Below are positions 29,294 through 47,961 of a stretch of 64,000 nt of DNA, in pieces. Within the stretch, counting starts at the first letter, position 1. Every line of letters begins with the position of its first letter. The translations under genes and the position numbers were made by a program. The notes under the pieces were generated by a model. It was not told the DNA's origin, ran no database searches, and worked only from the letters and a program-made list of their open reading frames with translations. The DNA is from Bryum argenteum (Eukaryota; Streptophyta; Bryopsida; Bryales; Bryaceae). The stretch covers positions 12,473,601-12,537,600 of the forward strand of contig CM073322.1 in NCBI GenBank assembly GCA_037043015.1, written 5' to 3'.

Positions 29294-30479
29294 AGGGATC
29301 CTCTCAAACAAAAGAATCAGCATTATGCTACAGAATCCCTTCCCCACTTGATGAATTGAGAAATTAAAATAGGGAGATATAAGTCTTCCTTGGGGACAAA
29401 AACAAAATTTGCATCCTCTTTAGGGACCCACTCATTTATTAGCCTCCTAGCATGCAAGACCCACCAAGTTCCTAATGTTCTACTCTTGTTACCTATTCCT
29501 TGTTATGGGGTCGACATGCATGGAGAATTGGAAGTCAACTTTCATTTAACCACGGTCAACCTTCTAAATTCATACAACTTTTCTATGTTGAATATAATTA
29601 GGGATAGAACAATTTTAAAATGAAATTCCGGTTCATTGAAATTTATTTTTAGTGTTGTCTGCACTAAATCATTATAAAATCACTATAAGTTTGTACTTTT
29701 TATCAAAAAAATTACTAGCTATGTTCACAAGTTTGCCTTTCTTTGAGTACTATATGTAGTTATCTGTTTAGTAAAAAAATCATCAAAAGTAAAAAGTTGT
29801 AGAAAATTGTGATTGTATACTGTAGCTATACTCAACGTGATTGTTAGTGTAGTATAATTCATTATTCCAAAGGAATGTGTAGTTGGTTCCACTAAGATAG
29901 AAAAATTGTGCAAGTTTGTAATGAAAGGTTAAAATTTATCTATTGCAATCCTATCACACCATGCAATCAAACTCTAAGTTCTTCTACTCTTGTACGTGTG
30001 TTTTTTTGAAAATAACATCAAGAGATATATAGGGAACATAAAGTATGAAGTAATCGGCTTTAGAATTTCACAAAAAAAAAAAAAAAAGAGCCTAGCGAGT
30101 GCTCCCTTAAGAAGAATTCAAACAAAGTGTCATAATATTCTCTAAGTTTTGCTCATAGAATGCCTAGGCGTTTCAAACAAGTTACTAGAATTTGGCTTCT
30201 ATTGAGAGGAATAGTTCTGTGGACACCTTGGCACGAACAAAACGATGTTACCTTCGATGCCAATAGGTGGACTAAAGAGAAGGGTAGAAGCACACTAAGG
30301 GTGGTACAAAATCGGCAAAAATCACAAGTACATTAAGTCTATCATTTTGCAGATTGGTTTGGGATCTTAGAACAATTATTAGCCGTTGATTACGTTTGAT
30401 CTCGGCCGTTGAATCTGGCTGGTGGTTGGGCCTTGATGGTAGCTGGTGGTTGACTTGACACTCTAACAGTGCACGTTTA
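29294..30479. other. AT-rich intergenic DNA
   Basis: Nothing recognised. An A-run at 30071-30086 has no detectable flanking duplication. Confidence 0.5.
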
Positions 30480-31498
30480 TGGCTGCTGTCACGGGTTTGA
30501 TGAGCCCCGTTAGGCTCTGCCACCACGGCCGTCGTCTTCCTGATTTTCCTGAGTTACGCCGTCGTCTTGCTGATTTTTGCTTTGCTGTCGTGTTGCTGAT
30601 TGTGCGAGGGCTCATGGTTAGTGATCGTGGAGGGCGGTGTGAGGAATTGCGAGGTCGCGAGCGGTTGCTAGGAATCTGTAGCTAGCGCAGGTCTGGAGGT
30701 TCAAGTCGCATGATTTTCCGGTGAGCTCGTGACGTCGTCGTCTTGCTGATTTTTGCGAGGGGTCCTGTTTGGTATCGATCGTGGAGGGTTCTGTTACGAT
30801 TTGCGAGGGCGCTGAGCGGTTTTGCGAGGGCGCTGAGGGAGGGAACTTGAGCGCAAGAGGTTGAAGGAGGTTTTTTGCTGAGCACTGCAGGAGGATCGAG
30901 GTCGTTCATCCGAGTCCACGAAGCGAAATTGCTTCGCGCTAGGGTTTCGCGAGGGCGAAATGGTGGAGACGACGACCACAGCCATCCCTCAAAGGTACTA
31001 TAGATGCATCACCTCTGCTTTTCAGTTTGTTTAGCCATGCTGTTGTCTTGTTCGGCTTGAATTTGCACTGAGAGAGAATGTCAGTGCTGAGCGTGTAGGT
31101 TGACGTAGCTTTTCTGCTGAGGACGTCACGCCGCATTTCGAGCTCCTCACTCTGTCACGCCGCATTTCGAGCTCCTCACGCTGTCACGCCGCATTTTGAG
31201 CTCCTCACGCTGTCACGCTGCATTTCGAGCTCCTCACGCTGTCACGCCATCGTCGTGCTGATCATGGAGGGCGCTGTATAGGGTTTTGAGAGCGCTGTGT
31301 GGATTTGCTAGGGCGAGGGCGCGAGTGTTTCTGGCTAGGTTGCTGCGCTCGGAGAGGTGAGCTTTTGGACGCGCCTTTTGATGGCTTTCTGATTCGTTAG
31401 CTTGTTAGAATGCACTTTGCCTAGCTTCCAGCATTGAATGTTGTCAATGCACTGTGTTCATGTGACAGGAAATTCGGGAGTTCTGAGAGGAAGAGGAA
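30480..31498 (+). promoter_or_regulatory. GC-rich upstream/leader region of the SUVR fusion gene
   Basis: Composition turns GC-rich at about 30480. It contains repeated 'cgtcgtcttgctgattttt' modules (near 30560 and 30735), a 29-bp minisatellite (31126-31253) and a plausible leader-intron acceptor (tgtgacag, ending 31468). A short upstream frame starting at 30960 (MVETTTTAIPQR) runs into a donor-like site, but joining it to the acceptor gives a stop, so it is at most an upstream ORF. Confidence 0.45.
31126..31253. repeat. 29-bp minisatellite, about 4.3 copies
   Basis: The unit is tcacgccgcatttcgagctc plus ctcacgctg; copies differ by single bases. It sits in the probable leader region of the downstream gene. 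Confidence 0.85.
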
Positions 31499-34400
31499 AT
31501 GGTGAAAAAGGAGAAGAAGCCCTCGTTAGAGGGTGTGCAGCGGGGGCAGAAGGAGAAGAAGTCGGCGGCCATTGCTGACAACGAAGAAGAGCCCCAGCTT
31601 GTTACCATCGACGATGTGGAGGACAAGATTTCTGTCCTGCGCAGAGGTGCACCTCCTCCAGCGCTATCGTTTGAGGATTTCAGGGATAGCTTTGGGCTGA
31701 ATGGGACGGGCATCAATCCCCACAAAGCTTCCCACCAAGGCAACGTTCTGCAGTCTGAATTGACTGCCGTGTTCGGGCAACAGCGAGGTAAATCCGGATA
31801 CTGGATTGGGGACGTCAAAGATTCCAAAGTCAAGGCTGCAATTGCTAGATTGTACCCCATAGTTTATCAAAAACCGTGTGTTATCAAAACCAAGCTCATT
31901 GCTGTGCAGTTTGCAATTGGAATTGTGGCTGATGTAGTGAAGGGATTAGATGTAGATTGGGCGGGTTTTGCTTTTATCACGAATAAAAACCAGCGTAGTG
32001 CATGGCAGAAAAAGATGAAAACTGCCTTAGAGATGAAAGCTTCACTTAGTGGTAGGACTTTGAGTGCCGTTCTGGAGGAGGAGGATATAGATACTCTTAT
32101 GCAGAGTGACGTTGTGAATTTCAATCCAAGTCAGCTGCAAGTCAAAGGGGTCGGTTCAGGCACACCAGGACAAAGCTCGAGCTGGATCGAGAAGAAAAAG
32201 CGAGAGACTTCGGACATGCAGCGCTTGGTGGAGTTGGAGCTAGAAGCTGTAAAGATTGATCTTCAATCGCTTCTGAAGGAAAAGCACTCTCTGGATCAGA
32301 AGGTGGAGGGCGTCCGAGTGATGGTGGAGAACATGAATCAGACAGCTGAGGAGTTCAGGGTGACAATAAAGAATTGCGAAGTGGAGGCTGAGGCGACCAA
32401 GATGCAGTACGGGTTGGAGATGTTTCTTTCGGCCAATGCCAAATCCGTGATCCAGTATAACTCGCTTCTTGATGAGCAGGTGAGCCAACACATGTTTGAT
32501 CTCCCTCTTTTTTGTTTTTGCTTCATGTAATTAAGCTTGTGTTTGATCAATTTCCTTCTTGTCCATGCAGGTCAGCAAGGATGCGAAGAAAGAAAAGTTG
32601 CTACGCAGGGAGGCGTTTCTCGTGGGTCAGCAATCCCTGTTGGCCCAAAGAGGTGTCGAACTTGCGGCCGAGCCTGGATTATCCTTGCAACCCCACCCCA
32701 TGTGCCTTTCCACAGAAATAGAGCAAGTGGAGGGTGATACTATGAAGATTACCGAATGTGTTTTGTGTTTGAGTCCATTTCCTTACAATGATATTGTGAT
32801 TTGTAGCTGCAGGCACCCATACCACCCATGGTGTGCCTTGTCGTGGTTTAGTACATCTGTTAAATGTGTAGTGAACACGTGTTATGTAGTTCACCCAGAT
32901 TGGTACAAAAGCTTTGGGTTCGGGGAACATCCAATTATTCTAGAAGAGAAGTCCGAGGCGTTGGATTGTGAGGAGCAACGAAACATCGCCATCTCTCGAA
33001 AGAACATTCTTTGCAAGCGGAATGGTGCGGATATTGGTATGTCACCACTCCCTTCCTTCCCGTACTTAGTGTATTCTAGTCCGGGTCGAAAGCAATGTAG
33101 TAAATTTTTGAATGCATGGTATGTCTATTTGTGGTCTTATGTGTGTTATGAGAATGAAATTTGTTACTGTTGTAGTTGATGTACATTGCTGGTAGACAGA
33201 ATGTAGTTTGTGTAGGTCAGTTGTTCTACTTCAGGTCTATTAATATACACTACATTTTCTAAATGGTAATAGAATATACTATTGGTCTGTCTTTTGGGTA
33301 AATAGAATGTTGACTTGTAGTCTGTTTAAGTTTTAGTAATGGTATAACATAAGTTCCTAGGTCTACAATGATATAGTCGAGGTAGTACTCTTGATATATG
33401 CTGAGACACTCAACATACTGAGCAAGAGTCCATTGCGAGTGTCTTTTATGTAATCAGAGGTATGTACATGTAGACTATGGCTTCTTTACACTAAATAAAT
33501 ATATCATTAAACTATGTAAGTATATGCTGGATTGTGTTAATATATGTTATACTATATTTTCAATCACATACTGGAGTATGTTCTAGTATCGCTCGGACTA
33601 TCATGTTACACTTCATAGGCTACGAAGAATAACAGTATGCAATCCACTTACATACTTCATGGTGTAAAATGTAGGCTCCTCCCAGCTGCCAATTCTTGGT
33701 CAAGCTTCCATTTGTACTGGAACATACAGCTTGGGAGAGACAAGTCAGGCTCATGCCCCACCGACTCGCACAAGAGAAGTAGAGACACCACTCCAAGCAT
33801 TGGTTCTGCAGGATTGCCGTAGTAACAAGTCCTCTGAGAAGAAGAAGTCTTCTGAGAAGAGTACATCATTCGAGGTCCCTGCTGGATGCAGCATGTCACC
33901 AAAGGGGTTATTTATCCCAACTGTGGGGACAGAAAAGGAGGTTGTTGGTGCTCCGGGTCCTCCATGCACTGAGGTGATTGATAGAGAGGTATAGTGGCTG
34001 CATGATAAACCTCGCTGAGATTATTATTCGAAGTATGTGTATTGATTAGCAAGTGTTTATGTCTATGTAGGCTCCTGAAGACCTACTTGAAAGCACACCT
34101 GGGAACCAAATCCAAGAACACGGTTCTCAGGGTTCAAGTGAGCATGATCAGTCCCTGGTCGAGGCAGACAACGACGTTGCTGAGGACCCTGAGCCTGCAT
34201 CGGCAATGGCAGAAGAAGAACCGCAGGAGGTTGTTTCCAATGAGGATGAGGTAGCCAGATTAAAGGCTACCATTGCTGAACTCACAAAGCAACAAGGGAG
34301 CTCGAAGGGAGTAGTCCGTCGGCCACCAGCGTTTGAGGATGTCCCCGGGCAGATCTTAGCTTCAACTGTAAAGACAAGGAAGGTTTCTGATGTTGGCAAA

Positions 34401-36387
34401 GGTGGCGATTCTCCTTCACCAAACTCGAGGAAGAAGGGAAAGGCCGAGAAGGTTAGGACCCGTGCAGATGGGCCTTCCGAATCTTTGGAGGTGACTGGGA
34501 GTGGCTCAAAGAAGTCGAAGAAGAAGGTGGGGGCAGCAGCAGATGACACCAACGTCGAAGAGGATGATAACATGACGCTCGATGGTTTTGCTCAAAACCT
34601 TCCTGCCAAGGTAAAGCGAACCTTGAAGAAATAGATCAAAGTTTGCTTGACATGTGGGAATGGGGAAGTCTGTGTATGCAGACATGTTTCTTAGAAGCAG
34701 GTGGGTTAGGTGTGTTGCATATAGGTGTGTTGATGCACTGCATTAGGAAGTGCATAATGGGATGAGGTCTCATGTATTTTGATGGTTGGGTATTTGCATC
34801 CAGCATTTTATGATATTTTGAGTTGGTTCACATCCCCATGGATAGCCTCGTTACTAATGTAGCATCATGATGCACCGATCATTAGTCATTGGGTGCATTT
34901 CTCAAGTGAGGTACACAATCTAGAACTTTTCTCTTTGTGTTCCCAAATAGATTATACTTTGGGTTGCCTTGTCTTTCTTTTACCGGTTGCAAGATTTGCC
35001 ATGCAGGTTGTGGCTCAACGGATTTCATCTTATGATATTTCTTTGGGTGTCGAGAATATTCCTGTCCTTGTAACGAGCAGAGAAGGCACTGACGAATTTC
35101 CCAAACCTTTCACATACATCCGGAACAACAAATTTCACAATTCAGTATCAACTTTGAACCCAACTGTAGTGAAGGGTGTGTTTTGCAGTAAATGTGATTC
35201 AGATTGTGGTGTTGGAGAGTGCTCCTGCAGTGCCTATAGCGGTGGTGGATTAGCTCCTTACACTAACGAAGGCCTACTTCATCCTCATTACATCGATATG
35301 GTACAATCACTTAACCTTTTAAAATTCGATGAGTATTTTTTTTCGATGCATTCATTTGCTTGTATCAAATGTTTGATTGGGTTACTAATATACTTGGAAG
35401 TTATTGCTGAATTTAGGCTGCACGGGAAGTAGCAGCAGAAGACGAAGATCTGTTTGAGTATTGCGACAAATTGAATTGTAACAGATCCGAGTATGGAGAA
35501 TGTAACGGGCATGTGACGTTGACTTTTTTGAAGGAGTGTGGAAATTCTTGCTCCTGCCCAAGACGTCGTTGTACAAATCGTGTAGTGCAGCAATCAATAA
35601 CTAAAAAACTCAATGTATAATATCTCACCTCTCTGCTTTTGCATGCTCCTTTTCTTACCACCAGTTTAGGATTGCATGTACCGAGAATCCCGTATGTGTG
35701 GCCGATTGTAGGTTTATTGGACCGGCCCAGAAAAGGAATGGGGCATCAAGTCCCTCGAAAATTTGATGGCAGGCACATTCGTATTCGAATACGTTGGGGA
35801 AATCGTCACGAATCAGGAATTATCAACCCGGAAAGGAAAGGGGAAGTATGCAATGAACTTGGATTCTGATTGGAGAGCGGAAAATGAATTAAATGATGAT
35901 GAGGCTCTGTGTATAGACGCGTCAACATTCGGTAATATCGCAAGGTTCTTGAATCACAGGTGAGTATCCTAGTCAATCACGGTTTTGTTTACGAACATGC
36001 TGCTGGTGATGCTCTAAAATTCTCAAAGTTCTCATTGCATAGGCGTTTATTTGCAGGTGCTTTGATGCGAACTTGGTGGCCTTGCCTGTTTTACACGATA
36101 ACATCAGAATAGGCTATTACCACGTGAGGCTTTGTGATTGTGGAATGAGCCTAGCATATCATTGTGTACTTATTGTATTTTTTTTTTTCCAAATCTTTGG
36201 TTGAGGTTTCAGCCACGTTTAACTTAATGCGGATTGCTCACAGGTTGCATTTTTTACGAACCGCGAAGTACTTGAAGGGGAGGAGCTCACATGGGACTAT
36301 GGGATAGACTTTGAAGATGATGATCATCCCGTTGCTTCATTCCCATGTGTGTGTGGCAGTATTTTCTGCAGGTCCAAGTTACGGTAA
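31499..36387 (+). CDS. Probable fusion: coiled-coil/RING-like N terminus plus SUVR-type histone lysine methyltransferase
   Basis: Nine exons keep frame throughout: 31499-32479, 32571-33036, 33675-33988, 34071-34610, 35007-35300, 35417-35614, 35712-35959, 36057-36123, 36244-36387 (3252 nt, 1083 aa). N-terminal part: an unrecognised globular region (about 45-200), a charged helical segment (about 230-350), a RING-like cysteine/histidine cluster (Cys390, Cys393, Cys405, Cys407, His409, His412, Cys415, Cys426, Cys431) and a low-complexity acidic/basic stretch. C-terminal part (from 768): pre-SET with 'DISLGVENIPV' and CxxC clusters, SET with 'FVFEYVGEIVT', 'RFLNHRCFDANLV', 'WDYGIDF', and post-SET CVCGSIFC, closely matching SUVR4/SUVR1. 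The likely role is H3K9-type methylation in silencing. The join depends on intron 34611-35006 (AAG|GTAAAG ... ATGCAG|G, phase 0). If it is not spliced, translation stops at 34634 (774 aa), and the SET part would be a separate transcript, perhaps starting at the ATG at 35001. The WIYLD domain usual in SUVRs is absent. Confidence 0.82.
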
Positions 36388-37539
36388 ATTGTCCTTACTC
36401 AGTGGGCATTGTTCAGCTTTCGTAAATCGGAGCCCATTTGATCAGTTTACGAACACTGAACGGTGGACATTTCTTACAGTTCAATAGACACTGTATTTTT
36501 ATTATGATAGTAGGATTAGAATTTGATGTGCATAGTTTTATTTCTAGTTTTTGTACAGTTAATTAAGGTTGTGAGAATAAAACTTGTTGTGAGAAGGGGA
36601 AGGCGGATGGAGATATGGCTTAAGAGGAAGGCGAAGTGCAATGGGGCTATCTGTGGAGATGTTATGGCATTGAGATGCTCGGTGGTTTTTGACTCTGTAA
36701 AGTTCTGGGGCTGGGGACGTTGCTTCATGCATCCTCAGATTTATATGAATAAATACTTTCGTTTACACATTCTTTTCATTCATGATTGTCGAAGGCGTGT
36801 ACAATTGTTGGTGTATGTTGGTGGTTTAGAATTTTGGGCCACCCGATTGTTAATGATGGGAAAGTATGTTAAGGCCATTTGTTTTCTTATCAAGTTACTA
36901 TGGAAGGCCCTATGACTTCAAAAGCATATTGCGCAGATTAGGCATTAGGAAACTGCTGTCATATGAAAATGCTCAGAATCGGGCAAGTATTACAAAGTAT
37001 TACAAAAGTGTGCAAATTCAGAATCGTGCAAGTATTACATAGTTCCAGATTCAGGGTTTCCCTTTTATGAATTTCAATGTCAAGGGGGAATCAAATCAGT
37101 TGTACAATGGTAATATCATCTTACACTACCATATGCCTACTTTTGTACTACCTTACACAAACCCCCATATACTGCTGGATCCTACCATTTTACCTCATTG
37201 TACATTGACAGTGTAACTAGAAAGAACTAACTTTCACTGAAATCCGGATACGTCCAATTCAATAAAGGATACTAAGAAGTCCAAGATAAAACTTTTGCCT
37301 TATGTAATACTTCACCTATTCGTAACATAAAAGGAGAACAAGGACCACAAGAATCGAATGAGCCATTAATGAATGAGCCAATAATTAACACCTGCCTTAT
37401 CTCCTAAATAAATGCAAATCAAGCTATTTCATGCATATGACTCCAACAAGTCTTCCAATGACGAGTGCTCCTCACATCTGGAAAGCAAGTCAAAGGCTGC
37501 CCTTGAAAAGAAGTTGAAAAACTTCAGCATAAATTTTAA
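36388..37539. other. Intergenic/3' regions between two convergent genes
   Basis: Holds the 3' ends of the methyltransferase fusion and of the minus-strand transposase-derived gene. A small direct repeat ('agaatcgggcaagtattaca' and 'agaatcgtgcaagtattaca') lies at about 36974-37040. No gene. Confidence 0.5.
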
Positions 37540-40500
37540 TTACAAAGCCTCTAGGCTGGTCGTTATCACATCTATTGTTTCTAAGTCCAATTGGTACACA
37601 GGCTCATCCCCCTTTACCCTATGAGCAGCTGGGACCATCAGAAATTTACAAGCTAGAACCAATGTGGCATTTATGTAAGCAATTCGAGAATTCCTTAAGT
37701 AGACATAGGAATTTCTAGAATTTCCCCACTTTTGGTAATACGTCCCGGCAATTACATACTCCCCTACATCAAACTCCCCACCCCAAGCACATTTAAATTT
37801 CTCTCTTACCATCTGTTTCTTCTTTTGACACTGAAGGATGTAGAAGTCCACCTTTTCTGTATTGCCTTCAAGCGCTGGCACAGCAAAATTGTCCCCTACT
37901 TCAACCAAATCTCCAAGAGTTTCCTCGGTGGCATAGTCCCAAGGCTCCTCATCTCCATCTTGAAGCTGCCCAGAAGTCATTTGCTCTCTTACGAAATGCA
38001 CATCTGATGGCACAAGCTTCAAGATTCTCCAGGGCTGGACATGGCCAATCTTCTCACAAGCTCCCCACTCACTCTCCATGCAAGGAGAACAGAAACACGA
38101 CAAATTTCTTACCATAAGCAAGGTTGGATCAGAACTGGACACTCCCTGGATGGAGTGCAGTTTTCTTGAACCTCCAATGGTGTCACAACCATGCAAATGC
38201 CCACGATCCACCTCATCAGGCCTAACAAGGTGGAAGTATCTATAAGATACTGTTTTGTGTGCTCCATTCTCCACCATGCCCTCCATAGTCTCTTGCAAAA
38301 AATCAACCGCATCCTCAGCATCTTGTAGCTTTCGCCAGGGGTTGTGCAATTGCTCCGTTCGCAAAGCTCTCTTCACCACAAAGACCGCTCCGTCCCACTC
38401 CCCTTTCCCGTGCCCTGTTCCAAAAAAGTTCCAAGACATAACACACCCGCCCGTTAGTCCTGGATATCTGCTAACAAAGTACATGGGCCTTGCACCTTTG
38501 AATTGCCCTGCACAACCATCACTCCAAACCCAATGACGTGATGGATTAACACCTTGCACTTGCAACCACTTCCAATGTTGCAAGAAACAATGCTGAACGA
38601 ACAACGTGTCATGAGTTTTGTCATCTGACACATAGAAATGGCTTTCCTTCACAATGTTATTAGTGAGGGGGTCTACTCTGTATGTTATGTGAACAAGGAT
38701 AGTTATCTGGGAGGAATGCCAATGCATAGACTGAATCTCATTTTGGATTTCAAATGAGTAATTCTCCGCAAAATCTACGTGGGAGAGGATAACATCAGCA
38801 GGTAACTCCCTCATACTAACTCTACATTCTACATCTTGCCACCTAGCAACAAAATTGTGAGTAACAAACTCCTGCAACTTTGGCTTCAAATACAGAAGAA
38901 ATTCAGCAGAAGAAGTTTCCATGAAAACTTCCTGGATTCGTTTTCTAGGTTGACCATCATCGTTTACTCCCACGACTTGATAGCTGAAGCACCTCCACTT
39001 TAGTTTGAATGGTGGATCATCCACCTCTAATGGACACAAGGGAAGAGAAGAAACACCACAATCTGAACATGAACCCATTAAACAGTCAAGCTTATGAAAC
39101 TCCTCAGATTCCCCTTTTGGACATACAATTTGCTCCCAAAATTTCGTAACACCATCACATTTGCTCAAATGAGCACAACATGAATCCCCATCTGAATAGT
39201 TGCAAACAAGACAGGAACAAGTACAATGAATATAAGTGTGTACTCCCTTCATTGCATCCCTCAGTGTATTGACTGCCTCCCGAAGCATGTCTATCTCAAC
39301 ATGATACTTGCAGCAACAGACATTTCTGTCTTTGCACTTCTTCACAAAGAAAGGCTTCAGGCACTCAAATGCACGCAGGGAAATGTTTGTTTCTGGTTGG
39401 GATTGAACGAAACGATCAAAGAATGAAGCCTGCACAATTCATTTCAGACGATGGCACACTTAATTAGTAGTATCACATACTTCAGTTGGTATATGTGTAA
39501 AGTAAATAGGTTAATGTGGGAGTAAATCCAGTACATCAATGTAGAGTAATGACTAATGAATACTACATATTCCACTCCATTTTCACACTAAAAATACCTA
39601 AGAATATATCAAGGACTAAACTGGACTATCATAATACACCAATGGTACACCTGATCATTACCTAAAAGTAGAGTCAGGACTACACATTAAATACAAATTC
39701 GACACAATCTATACACATCTCCTCCTGAAGTATATTGAAGAGCAGCCTATTCGTACTATTAGTTAACAAATCATAATACACGGACTTCAACATACTCCAA
39801 TTGCATTATTTCAGAGACTGCAATTCAGACTTCCAACATGCAATAATCTCTGGAATATGATGTACTACGTAGTGACAACCTCTTAATTCTAGTGCAATCT
39901 AAATACAACAACTTCTCATTTGTAAACCTAGAAATGATATATCTGATGCCGTTACGCATCACCCCAAGGTAAATGCAAATAACGCAATCACAATTGCAAC
40001 AAAATTCAATAAACTTCAAATTCAATAAACTTCTATGCTAATTCAATTAACTAGTTAAAGGGGGACCTAACATAATAAATCAACATGAGGAGTCAAATCT
40101 ACAGCTGCCATGTGTTACGAGGACAGTAACCAAGACTCATCTTCTGATATAACCGTTGCCGTCAGTTCAGCATTTCCAGGATCACCATTTGCAATACGTG
40201 GTTATTATGGACTTTTTTTACACTCTTCATGTTGCATATACTCGAGGCAATGACTTTATAGACTAAGGTATATGTCAGTGCTACAAATGCATACTGTGCG
40301 GTAGAATTCGTAGTACATGGACTTTAGACAAGGGATCTTAGACACTAACAAGGTATCTAATGTATTCATTACACACCACTTGTACAGAAGTAGTACGACA
40401 ACATCTATGTGAAATATGTTGTAGTACTATGCATGCATACTATAAGTTACAAATTCAGAATACAGATACTTCAATCTAGAATGTAAGACACTACTAAAGT

Positions 40501-41629
40501 ATCTTATGCAGAGTAATAAGCCTTTAACAGTATGTTAAAAGTACTACCACTACTATGAAATGTCTTACATGGTTATTAACACCACAAAAGCTACACTGCA
40601 AAGGATATTTTGTATACTACAGGGTGTGACAACGTAGATTAGCATTACCATGTATACATGAAAGAGGCCTAGCATTATATAGGCCTCCTAAAATTCAGGT
40701 ACAACAATACTATCCAAACATCAAGCTATCAACAACGTCAATGACATGTTAAGAGTGATTAAACCCTAATGCAAGAGTTGACAACAAACAACTTTGCAGA
40801 ATGTTCATGAAGTCCAAAGCAAATTCAATAAACGTGAGGAAGGAATAGTGAAATTCCTTACCTGACTCTCCAGTAGAAGGTGCGTAGCGTGTTGCTCATA
40901 TACTTTTGGCCCCAACCTCCTTCTAGTAACATCCTTCTTGTTGGAATTCACACGCGTTTCTGAAGTCCACCAAGCAATCACAAGCTCTTTAGTTCCACTC
41001 GGAACACCTTCCCTTCTTCTCCTCTCAGGCAGCTTAAAAATGGATGATCCATTAGAATCAAGAGTCCGACGTCGATGTATCGCAGACGTGATATTTCTGG
41101 CTCTTGTGCCCAACACCCTCGACAGGGCACGAACTCCAGCCGTATCAGATCTCACAGCCGCTTCTAGCAAGGTTTTCTTTCTAACCAACTTCTCTTTCGA
41201 GGATGGATTCTTCAACAATTCCAACTCTTTCCTGTAAGACTGGACAAACGCATGAGTAGCTTTGGCTTCTAAGTAATATTCCGGCAAGTGTAAAGCAATT
41301 GCAGTACTGTTCAAAACAGAATCTAAGACAGCCTTTCGAAACTCTGGACCAAAAGACTCGTTATCCAAGCTATCAACAATCAGAGAACGAATCGTGCTTG
41401 ACACTCGCAAAACTTCCCGCCGACATGGAATTTCCGATTCAGCACACTCTCTCACTAACTGTTCTGATCTTCCTTGCAGAAGCCTCTTCTTTGCCCTGCA
41501 TTGTCGTTGGCGTTCTGCTGCTTTTTCTCTTGCAGCCACGATAGAATCCTCGGCTTCCTGTCTCTCTCTCTGAGCAGGTCCAGGTCTCTTTACACCCCGG
41601 CGACGATCTTCAGCTCTTGCGTTGCCCAT
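37540..41629 (-). CDS. DDE-transposase-derived protein, intact, two exons
   Basis: Exon 1 41629-40862 and exon 2 39429-37540, joined across a 1432-bp GT-AG intron in phase 0 (2658 nt, 885 aa). The start is the ATG of MGNARAEDRRR; the frame upstream opens only from a TTG. Exon 1 begins with a basic helical region and ends 'YEQHATHLLLESQ'. Exon 2 has a cysteine-rich block (residues 279-403, with CCCKYH at 294-299 and many CxC/CxxC pairs), then the catalytic-like core: 'HVDFAENY' (Asp475), 'WSDGCAGQFK' (Asp560) and 'GTGHGKGEWDG' (Asp602 or Glu600). These motifs characterise a widespread but poorly named DDE-type transposase family also found in animals. No frame damage is visible over 885 codons. 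No terminal inverted repeats were found around the gene, so domestication or an element with unrecognised ends are both possible. Converges on the methyltransferase gene. Confidence 0.8.
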
Positions 41630-41639
41630 CTTCAAAGAA

Positions 41640-42900
41640 ACACGTTCACGACTTCACGCATGCACAAAAAAACGCGCGCATGCACAAAATAAAGCGCGCA
41701 TGCACAAAAAACGCAACGTCCTGAGCCTCATTCAAGCATGAAACGAGAGAGACAAGCAGGCTACTCTCCAGCGACGTTGCATCAGCCGCCGAGGTTCTGT
41801 ATCCTCATAACTAATTATGCTCAGAATGACGGTATGTCAGGTTCGCAGGTTCGCTACATTCAATATCAGATCCGGGTATAGACGCCAAAAGTGCACGAAT
41901 GAATGGGCTGTCAGCCCTGACTTCCGATCTTCCAAGCCACGTGGCGCTAAAACATTGGCGCACTGACCTCAGCGAGTATCTTGAAGTACTGCAGTAGTAC
42001 AACTGGTACATGTCCCTTCCAATTCCTGAGATTAGTAAACTTTGTGAAATCTCGCACAAAACAACTTCTACAGGGAGCTGTTTTGAGAGGCCCACTCGAA
42101 ATGCTATCTTTTCTATACAACCAAATTCGAAAATCTAAAAAAAAAAACAAATTTCCCTATGTTTGAGCCACTTTGAAAAAAAAACCCTAATTTCCTCATA
42201 ACCGTTGATTAGATTGCAATATTGTACGAATTCTCTTACACAATGTGCTTCCTAAACATATATTACACTTATTACGAAGAGGAAATTAAAAACTAATAAC
42301 AAAAACCAACAAAATGAAGTCTATTTACAAAAAAATTATACTATGGCAGTCACAACCTTGGTGTATAAATATACTCACTACGGCCAAACCATGAGGAGAC
42401 TATTAATAGGCTTTATCTTACTAGTTGCACATCTATATATACAACCATATTTTTGTATAATATCCCTCAAAAACATAGAACTTTAAACTCTACAACATAT
42501 TGAATGCTTGAAACTTCAGAAACTGCACTTTGTGACAACCTTTTTGTACACCCTTAGTGTGCTTCTACCCAGAAACTAGACCTCTTTTTTTCAGTTGGGA
42601 CTTATTGACTAGGGGAAGGAAGGGTGGCGCAAGTTAGAGTCAGAAGGAATGTGATAATGAGCCTAGAAAGAGTAATTTGAGCAATTCAAGGAAAACTGGT
42701 GCATTAATGGAGTCCTAGCTACTTGGAAGGGGGGTTATCCCTTATGGCACTCTATGGTGCCGTGAGTAGGTGAGTTGTGGTTATACTTCTTTGTTAATCT
42801 TATACTTTGTTTCCTCCTTTAAAGACCGGACAAAGGAGGACATGGCGGAGGAAGCTCATTTTTTTAGTAAAGGTCTCCCTTTCTTTGTGTCAAAAAAGAA
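41640..42900. other. Upstream region of the transposase-derived gene, then AT-rich DNA
   Basis: 41640-41810 has three tandem 'gcatgcacaaaa' motifs (41659-41712) just upstream of the start, in the probable promoter. From about 42100 the sequence is AT-rich with no gene. Confidence 0.45.
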
Positions 42901-46273: not shown

Positions 46274-47961
46274 AGTTGTTATAGATTTAGCAAAAAATCA
46301 AGCGAACCCCACCATGTAAGAATCACGTCGTTGGAGCTACATACTCTAATATTTAAGGCATGTATCTATTATTTAGGCATATAGTTTATTTTATGCGAGT
46401 GATACTATGATCTTGGGGACGGCTGGTCGGATTGGGCCTCAGAAAGTGTCCTTGGAAGTGGGTTAATATCCTCTAGAGTTGTGGAAAACATTTGGATCTC
46501 AAAACAAGTCGACGGGTCCCGAGATATTGAATTTTGAAGCATTTATGACCCCTAAATAACCAGAAATTGCAAAAATGACCTAATCATAGAACCCCAATTC
46601 CATTAAAATGGCACTATGCCATGTGCCATTTTGTCACACTAGATCTTACATTTGTGCTCATATAAAATGATATATTCTGTAATATCACAATTTTTTGTAA
46701 TATCACTTCTTTATATACATTGTCACTCATTTTCCCTAATATCACCTTAAAATTCTGTTATATCACATGGTTTTTGAACTACAGTTCAGAAAGGTGAGGT
46801 GTGCCATTTTACCGGAATAATGCCATTTTAACGGATTTGGGGTTATAGAGAATGTATGCCGCGGCTTTATACTAGTCTATTATTTAATAAGGAAAGTAGT
46901 TTGTTTTATTTTTGTTTTGATTTGCGTGTGACACTATGATATTATGAACCACCGATTGATGTAACAAAAGGGGTGTTAGAGTGTAATTCAAAATCAAACT
47001 TATGGAATTAGAAATATGTGAGAAAATGGAACTACTCAAAACCTGGGACCCTCCGCCACACGCTAGGGTGAAAGAAAGAGATTCCAAATGAACACATAAA
47101 ATCTGTTTTTTAATTGAACAATTGCGCCGGTGATACACAAGACAAAAAGACCTTCCGAAGTTGAGAGTGGAAGCACCTTACACTTCCTTCCTTTCACCCG
47201 GGACAGATAACATGGCCAGATAACTTCTTGAGGGACTACACTAATTCGTGTAATTAGCTTGGGTAGTAGTCACCACGGCTAAATTTAGCTATAGTGTAAT
47301 GTAATTTTTACACATCTTATTGGATAATATTCTTGTGTGATAAATTAGGTGTAAACTTCTATGTTAGTAACGTTAATCTATTGCCATTTTTACCTATATG
47401 TTAGAACGCTAGTTTCTCATTATTTACTTCACATGTTTCCACTCTTTGAAGAGTTGAAGGCCATGCATATTTTTACAACCCCTCAATGCATGCGTTTCCA
47501 TCATGAGTTCACTACCGTTCCCACCTTCTCCCTTCCGCTCCCACTTGCTCCCCACTGCATGCGTTCCCAACAACTTGTCTTCTTGTCTCATTTCCGGCAG
47601 CGACTTTTGTTGTAATGTTGAAAATAACTTTTGCGATTTTGTTGTAATGTTGAAAATAACTTTTGCGATTTTGTTGTAATGTTGAAAATAACTTTTGCGA
47701 TTTTGTTGTAATGTTGAAAATAACTTTTGCGATCCAATCGTTTTCCACATTTCTACAAAAAGATTTGCTTCCAACGACACCTCATGCGTCCCGGGCGATG
47801 GTTCCAAGATCATAGTGTCACTTGCAAATCAAAACAAAACAAAACAAAACAAGCTACAGACTTGCCTTAAATAATAGATACCTCCCTTAAATATTAGAAT
47901 ATGTAGTTCCACACGATGTGATTCTTACGTGGTTGGGTTCTCTTGCTTTTGTGCTAGATTT
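46274..47961. mobile_element. 1.7-kb element with ~140-bp imperfect inverted ends
   Basis: 46274-46415 is the inverted counterpart of about 47805-47961 (ends TAGATTTAGCA and TGCTAGATTTA; shared 'caccatgtaagaatcacgt' against 'acgtgattcttacatgg'-type sequence). Parts of the same terminal motif, with 'ttaaataataga' and (CAAAA)n, recur at 46870-46950, 48040-48170 and 58640-58880. No transposase frame is seen inside, so it is probably non-autonomous. Exact edges and target duplication are unresolved. Confidence 0.55.
47609..47733. repeat. 32-bp tandem repeat, four copies
   Basis: The unit starts gttgtaatgttgaaaataac and recurs at 47609, 47641, 47673 and 47705 with essentially no divergence, implying recent expansion. 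Confidence 0.9.

Follow-up and report, generated by a model that had tools for sequence, protein, structure and literature searches.

A predicted gene of the moss Bryum argenteum, which seems to join a protein with a RING-like zinc site to a SUVR-type methyltransferase unit for lysine 9 of histone H3 (H3K9), raises the question of whether it belongs to the plant or to something that the plant carries. The gene lies at 31499-36387 of a 64,000-nucleotide stretch of contig CM073322.1 (positions 12,473,601 to 12,537,600), and this whole stretch is called the window below. According to our analysis, this RING-SET gene is probably the second gene of a DNA transposon of the autonomous type, in which a RING-like protein is spliced to an H3K9-type SET unit.

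The first-pass annotation had taken the gene for a host SUVR of new architecture and had missed its context: the gene is part of a multicopy DNA transposon of the autonomous type. By aligning the flanks of seven copies with the window, an element of 12,289 bp was delimited, with the marks of a cut-and-paste transposon, i.e. terminal inverted repeats, a target-site duplication and dispersed copies with common ends. Copies of the SET region with 90-99% identity were found on C8, C3 (two), C7 (two, one of them split), C9 and C2, along with more distant relatives. Identical 4-bp duplications flank all four complete copies (AGAA in the window, AGAT, CGTT and TATT in the others); for the other four of the eight copies, the stretch read showed one end at most. 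The open spliced frame would suit a host gene with a new RING-SUVR architecture, but the whole gene sits between the repeats and target duplications of an element that also has a transposase-like gene, and the two genes recur together; the element boundaries rule out a host gene at the window locus, and we give this explanation next to no weight. In addition, the genome has a separate host SUVR (L030, on C2) with a WIYLD domain (E = 6.3e-9, above the cut-off, exons joined by hand), a pre-SET domain and a SET region detected by tblastn. Because the SET stretch of the window is 56% identical to that of L030, and L030 has WIYLD, the element SET is by this comparison a relative of the host SUVR and not L030 itself. 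In the SET trees the placement of two further element loci (L035 and L038) relative to L030 was weakly supported (43-76), and single capture was not separated from repeated capture.

The nine-exon model of the RING-SET gene, with splice sites picked by eye, gives an open frame of 1083 residues. Several claims of the first-pass annotation held for this model. The fourth intron (donor AAG/GTAAAG, acceptor ATGCAG/G, phase 0) preserves the frame, and its splicing removes the stop ending at 34634, with 767 residues preceding the SET unit. The pre-SET/SET/post-SET unit is complete, as SET (E = 5.2e-17, residues 941-1056) and Pre-SET (E = 2e-9, residues 781-920) are both above the Pfam cut-offs and the post-SET cysteines can be recognised by eye. 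The best matches of the window SET are EHMT1/EHMT2 and other H3K9 enzymes, and it retains the motifs NHRC, ELTWDY and the post-SET cysteines. The zinc cluster reported in the N-terminal part is RING-H2-like at residues about 388-428, though below the Pfam cut-off: zf-RING_2 reached E = 7e-4 on the full model (residues 389-427) and 2.1e-5 on the RING exon alone (25.1 bits, cut-off 27.3), and RING chains in the PDB matched weakly (best RNF24, E = 0.001). Across the aligned loci most of the Cys/His core of this module is conserved, although L013, L028 and L029 show losses. The N-terminal module thus appears to be RING-H2-like, with a putative E3 ligase function. A search for WIYLD found none, whether with the full model (E up to 1) or with exons 1-4 (E up to 10), in line with the earlier remark that this domain is missing where SUVRs usually carry one. 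That a RING-like part takes the place of a domain able to bind ubiquitin suggests some connection with ubiquitin, which we regard as a lead only.

Whether the N-terminal part and SET form one protein was judged from the junction in the eight window-group copies and in 14 further loci, seven picked by SET match (L025-L029, L031 and L043) and seven by transposase match (L032-L038), some of them of the same family (L026 with L029, L027 with L028). SET was found in 11 of the 14 (fragmentary in L033) and in four of the seven picked by transposase. Seven of the eight window-group copies have the donor, the in-frame read-through tail and the acceptor, C9e being without the donor side. A donor, a tail with a stop and a phase-0 acceptor recur in ten of the 11 SET-bearing loci (L025-L029, L031, L032, L035, L038 and L043), where the sites of L035, L038 and L043 were picked by eye among several candidates; in L033 the junction was not found with the one pattern searched.

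The same region could be read as two genes, a RING protein terminated by the 34634 stop and a separate SET gene that begins with the ATG at 35001. The window and all seven near loci (L025-L029, L031 and L032) do have an in-frame ATG immediately in front of the acceptor CAG, preceded at -3 by G in the window, L026, L027 and L029, but by T, a poor start context, in L025, L028, L031 and L032. Because the tails of the near loci are kept (VKRTLKK, VKQTLKK, VKRTQKK, VERIPKK, VKRIPKK or VKVTGRR) while the stop codons differ (TAG in the window, L025, L031 and L032, TAA in L026-L029), the tail is probably translated, and this conserved stop is again what two genes would give. The SET-less locus L034 also ends its N-terminal protein in a like tail, KIKRTCRK, and has AAGATAAAG at the place of the GT donor of the others; the tail may therefore be no more than the former terminus of the N-terminal protein, while the missing donor of a SET-less locus speaks against two genes. 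Evidence against two genes comes from L035, L038 and L043. In these loci the stretch from the upstream in-frame stop to the D-[IL]-x-x-G motif, the conserved beginning of the SET unit, contains no ATG, candidate phase-0 donors and acceptors are seen by eye, and the junction intron of L043 has only 163 nucleotides. In L038 and L043 a shorter SET protein could begin at an ATG that coincides with the beginning of the pre-SET match or lies slightly within it, whereas in L035 an ATG lies further inside only. Since no ATG precedes the conserved beginning of the SET unit in these three diverged loci, joining of the N-terminal part to SET by splicing is favoured, and we consider two genes improbable. 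The fusion of a RING-like protein with an H3K9-type SET proposed in the first-pass annotation is thus backed by comparison across loci, and fails as an architecture of a host SUVR. Its further suggestion, that intron retention gives a product without SET, is supported by the conserved stop just inside the joining intron, which makes a RING-only short form a plausible second product.

Related elements are widespread in the genome. Relatives of the transposase gave at least 84 matches (the best 70 of 558 candidates scored); 70 places were used, with 14 second-piece rows left out and two of the 70 being one element. For the N-terminal protein, 108 matches yielded 62 places once second pieces and one distant fragment had been set aside; SET gave 115 places, one row per place, collapsed from at least 167 matches (the best 126 of 406 candidates scored), element membership not being proven for each of the 115. 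A SET place lies within 8 kb of 43 of the 70 transposase places, tail-to-tail in all 43, where random placement would give about 0.5, and an N-terminal protein lies within 12 kb of 31 of the 70, again always tail-to-tail (31 of 31), where about 0.4 would be expected. Both counts are lower bounds, as the SET of L032 is real yet outside the 115. In L043, the one SET place sampled without a scored transposase, a transposase adjoins SET after all. A pattern scan for a relative in viral contigs gave one stretch, which tblastn did not confirm.

Such spread bears on whether SET is a fragment of a host SUVR carried along passively and without function. The SET region keeps introns, and its FLNHR intron has the same place as in the host SUVR L030, as after capture of genomic DNA; most window-group copies are also broken. 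However, SET also accompanies transposases with 48-52% identity to the one in the window, L035, L038 and L043 have an open frame in the SET core, and constraint is seen between subfamilies. We therefore regard passive capture as very improbable.

This constraint was estimated as the ratio of nonsynonymous to synonymous divergence (dN/dS) between two subfamilies (window, C3b and C8a versus C3c, C7d and C2f). It was 0.26-0.36 in the N-terminal part, 0.18-0.37 in SET and 0.26-0.35 in the transposase of the copies compared, and, against the truncated copy C9e, 0.17-0.21 in SET and 0.19-0.22 in the transposase. Within subfamilies the values were mostly higher, 0.15 to about 1.1, from few changes. 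Third codon positions differ most in all seven comparisons between families, and the splice-site dinucleotides are kept where present in the copies, except for one acceptor in C3c. RING region, SET and transposase thus appear to be under coding constraint, and constraint between subfamilies and families supports a gene beyond a chance open frame. A special constraint on intron 4, considered since it diverges by 2.0-2.3% between subfamilies versus 7.4-8.5% for the other introns pooled, was withdrawn because the synonymous sites of exons 4 and 5 are also low and mark a low-divergence tract of about 1 kb.

The partner gene is on the opposite strand, tail-to-tail with the RING-SET gene, and encodes 885 residues in two exons. 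Among ten aligned transposase sequences, ten D/E residues are invariant, D475, D560 and D602 among them. The gene is a putative transposase by its context, copy number and conserved acidic residues. Membership in HarbingerS was rejected, as neither transposase exon has a Pfam match and the 4-bp target duplications are variable; the target duplication of Harbinger is the 3-bp TWA. A 20-bp tandem repeat (41657-41711) lies a short way upstream of the start codon of the transposase (41629).

Several observations weigh against our preferred explanation of the RING-SET gene. The frame is open throughout in the window alone among the eight copies, the other seven having frameshifts, stops or gaps. 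All six other copies covering 32647-32667 have indels relative to the window, five sharing one pair; the window frame differs there over about 20 bases and is then restored, a short compensated difference. The dN/dS values rest on few changes, without a formal test, and the rearranged copy C7g gave higher values against the second subfamily (N-terminal part 0.47-0.52, SET 0.22-0.48); it was kept out of the ranges above since the alignment of its N-terminal part extends into an insertion. Degeneration is seen in some of the SET copies: L032 lacks the post-SET cysteines, L028 has changed motif residues and L033 is fragmentary. Neither transposase exon has a significant match in Pfam or NCBIfam, nor has exon 2 one in the PDB, and the window transposase has two odd residues in one conserved motif compared with the other aligned sequences covering it. 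Finally, no SET turned up in the parts of L034, L036 and L037 that were read. Since these are three of the seven loci picked by transposase, not every element lineage seems to need SET. One of them, L034 (C2:29823011-29829000), which has a transposase and a RING-like protein but in which no SET was found and whose tail lacks the donor, offers a natural comparison.

Features of the transposon in the window, with positions in the window, strand and the basis of each assignment
Feature	Position	Strand	Basis
DNA transposon, 12,289 bp	30282..42570		aligned copies on other chromosomes share end points
Left target-site duplication, AGAA	30278..30281		flank alignment
Right target-site duplication, AGAA	42571..42574		flank alignment
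Left terminal inverted repeat	30282..30311	+	30 aligned positions, 96.7%, one gap
Right terminal inverted repeat	42542..42570	-	aligned with left repeat
Exons of predicted RING-SET gene	31499-32479, 32571-33036, 33675-33988, 34071-34610, 35007-35300, 35417-35614, 35712-35959, 36057-36123, 36244-36387	+	sites picked by eye
Exons 1-4, N-terminal part, 767 residues, with RING-like module	31499..34610	+	frame; paired with transposases elsewhere in genome
RING-H2-like zinc site, residues about 388-428	32751..32873	+	Pfam (below cut-off), PDB matches, alignment
Intron 4, frame-keeping, joining N-terminal part to SET	34611..35006	+	frame; like junction at other loci
Tail VKRTLKK with stop TAG, read through on retention of intron 4	34611..34634	+	tail comparison between loci
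Exons 5-9, pre-SET, SET and post-SET	35007..36387	+	frame, Pfam matches, SET comparison
Transposase-like gene, exon 1, 256 residues	40862..41629	-	gene model; matched in L026
Transposase-like gene, exon 2, 629 residues and stop	37540..39429	-	gene model; relatives in genome

Further repeats were seen in and around the element. Left of the insertion, 30145-30281 resembles, on inspection by eye, what is left of a retrotransposon-type frame, so that the element may be nested in an older repeat. A 29-bp tandem repeat (31125-31248, 4.3 copies) precedes the RING-SET gene, and other short repeats lie between 30523 and 31316. Outside the element, a 240-bp stretch of the window (46615-46850) recurs at 96% beside or inside the C7d copy and is another repeat.

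What a transposon might do with such a protein can be outlined from the predicted domains. H3K9 methylation is a mark that hosts use to silence transposons. The fused protein is predicted to be an active histone methyltransferase; its N-terminal part would bring SET to the chromatin of the element or of its target, and SET would place H3K9 methylation there, adjusting silencing, the insertion site or the cost to the host. We put this guided writing of H3K9 methylation forward tentatively, as the likeliest role of the protein yet somewhat short of an even chance. Retention of intron 4 would yield a basic-tailed, RING-only form, which could compete with the SET form or regulate it; in the Drosophila P element, intron retention yields a repressor. 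An element that tunes its own silencing by a conserved splice switch, the spliced form being a RING-SET writer and the retained form a RING-only regulator, is conceivable, though we think it rather unlikely. About equally doubtful is the opposite role, in which the SET protein would block host silencing, either as a decoy or competitor of the host SUVR or through methylation of some protein other than a histone, for example the transposase. Other transposons do encode anti-silencing factors, such as VANDAL proteins and TET/JBP (PMC12730594), and a SET-less form of the RING-SET protein seems possible; the catalytic-type motifs kept in the window and in several copies favour activity over a dead decoy.

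A transposon-borne writer of H3K9 methylation would be of interest in two respects. If the preferred explanation is true, a widespread group of transposons has an SUVR-like writer of its own that is maintained by selection and attached to a RING-like part, and the question of self-shaped heterochromatin, its occurrence and its reasons, becomes directly testable in a plant; a mobile element would seem to own the type of enzyme that hosts use against mobile elements. Counts of SET and RING genes in such genomes can, moreover, be inflated by transposons.

Among known systems, the third intron of the Drosophila P element likewise has a stop just inside the retained intron and gives a shorter, possibly regulatory product; the P element shortens its transposase, whereas the window element would shorten an accessory protein, with loss of SET. 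With plant SUVR1/2/4 the element protein shares the pre-SET/SET/post-SET core, but these carry WIYLD, whereas the element protein has a RING-like N-terminal part instead, no WIYLD found in it, and is borne by a transposon. SUVR4 is reported to turn H3K9me1 into me2/me3 in vitro, and its WIYLD domain to be capable of ubiquitin binding (PMC7218100). Fungal DNA transposons that encode a TET/JBP dioxygenase (PMC12730594) likewise show a mobile element owning a chromatin-mark enzyme, of DNA demethylation type there and of histone methyltransferase type here. A further likeness is to HarbingerS and MuDR-type transposons of Phytophthora, which are DNA transposons with an acquired gene for a SET histone methyltransferase (Kojima and Jurka 2014, as cited in PMC12730594). 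As far as that citation describes them, the window element differs by residing in a genome with a plant-type SUVR, by 4-bp duplications without a fixed sequence (four copies) and by a SET apparently splice-fused to a RING-like element protein. No report of a plant transposon with a RING-SUVR fusion was found among the listed titles and abstract openings from the open-licence literature on transposon-borne SET, transposon superfamilies and plant SUVR/WIYLD. Thus, while transposon-borne SET is already known from oomycetes, the splice fusion of RING and SET in a plant transposon would appear to be a new form of it.

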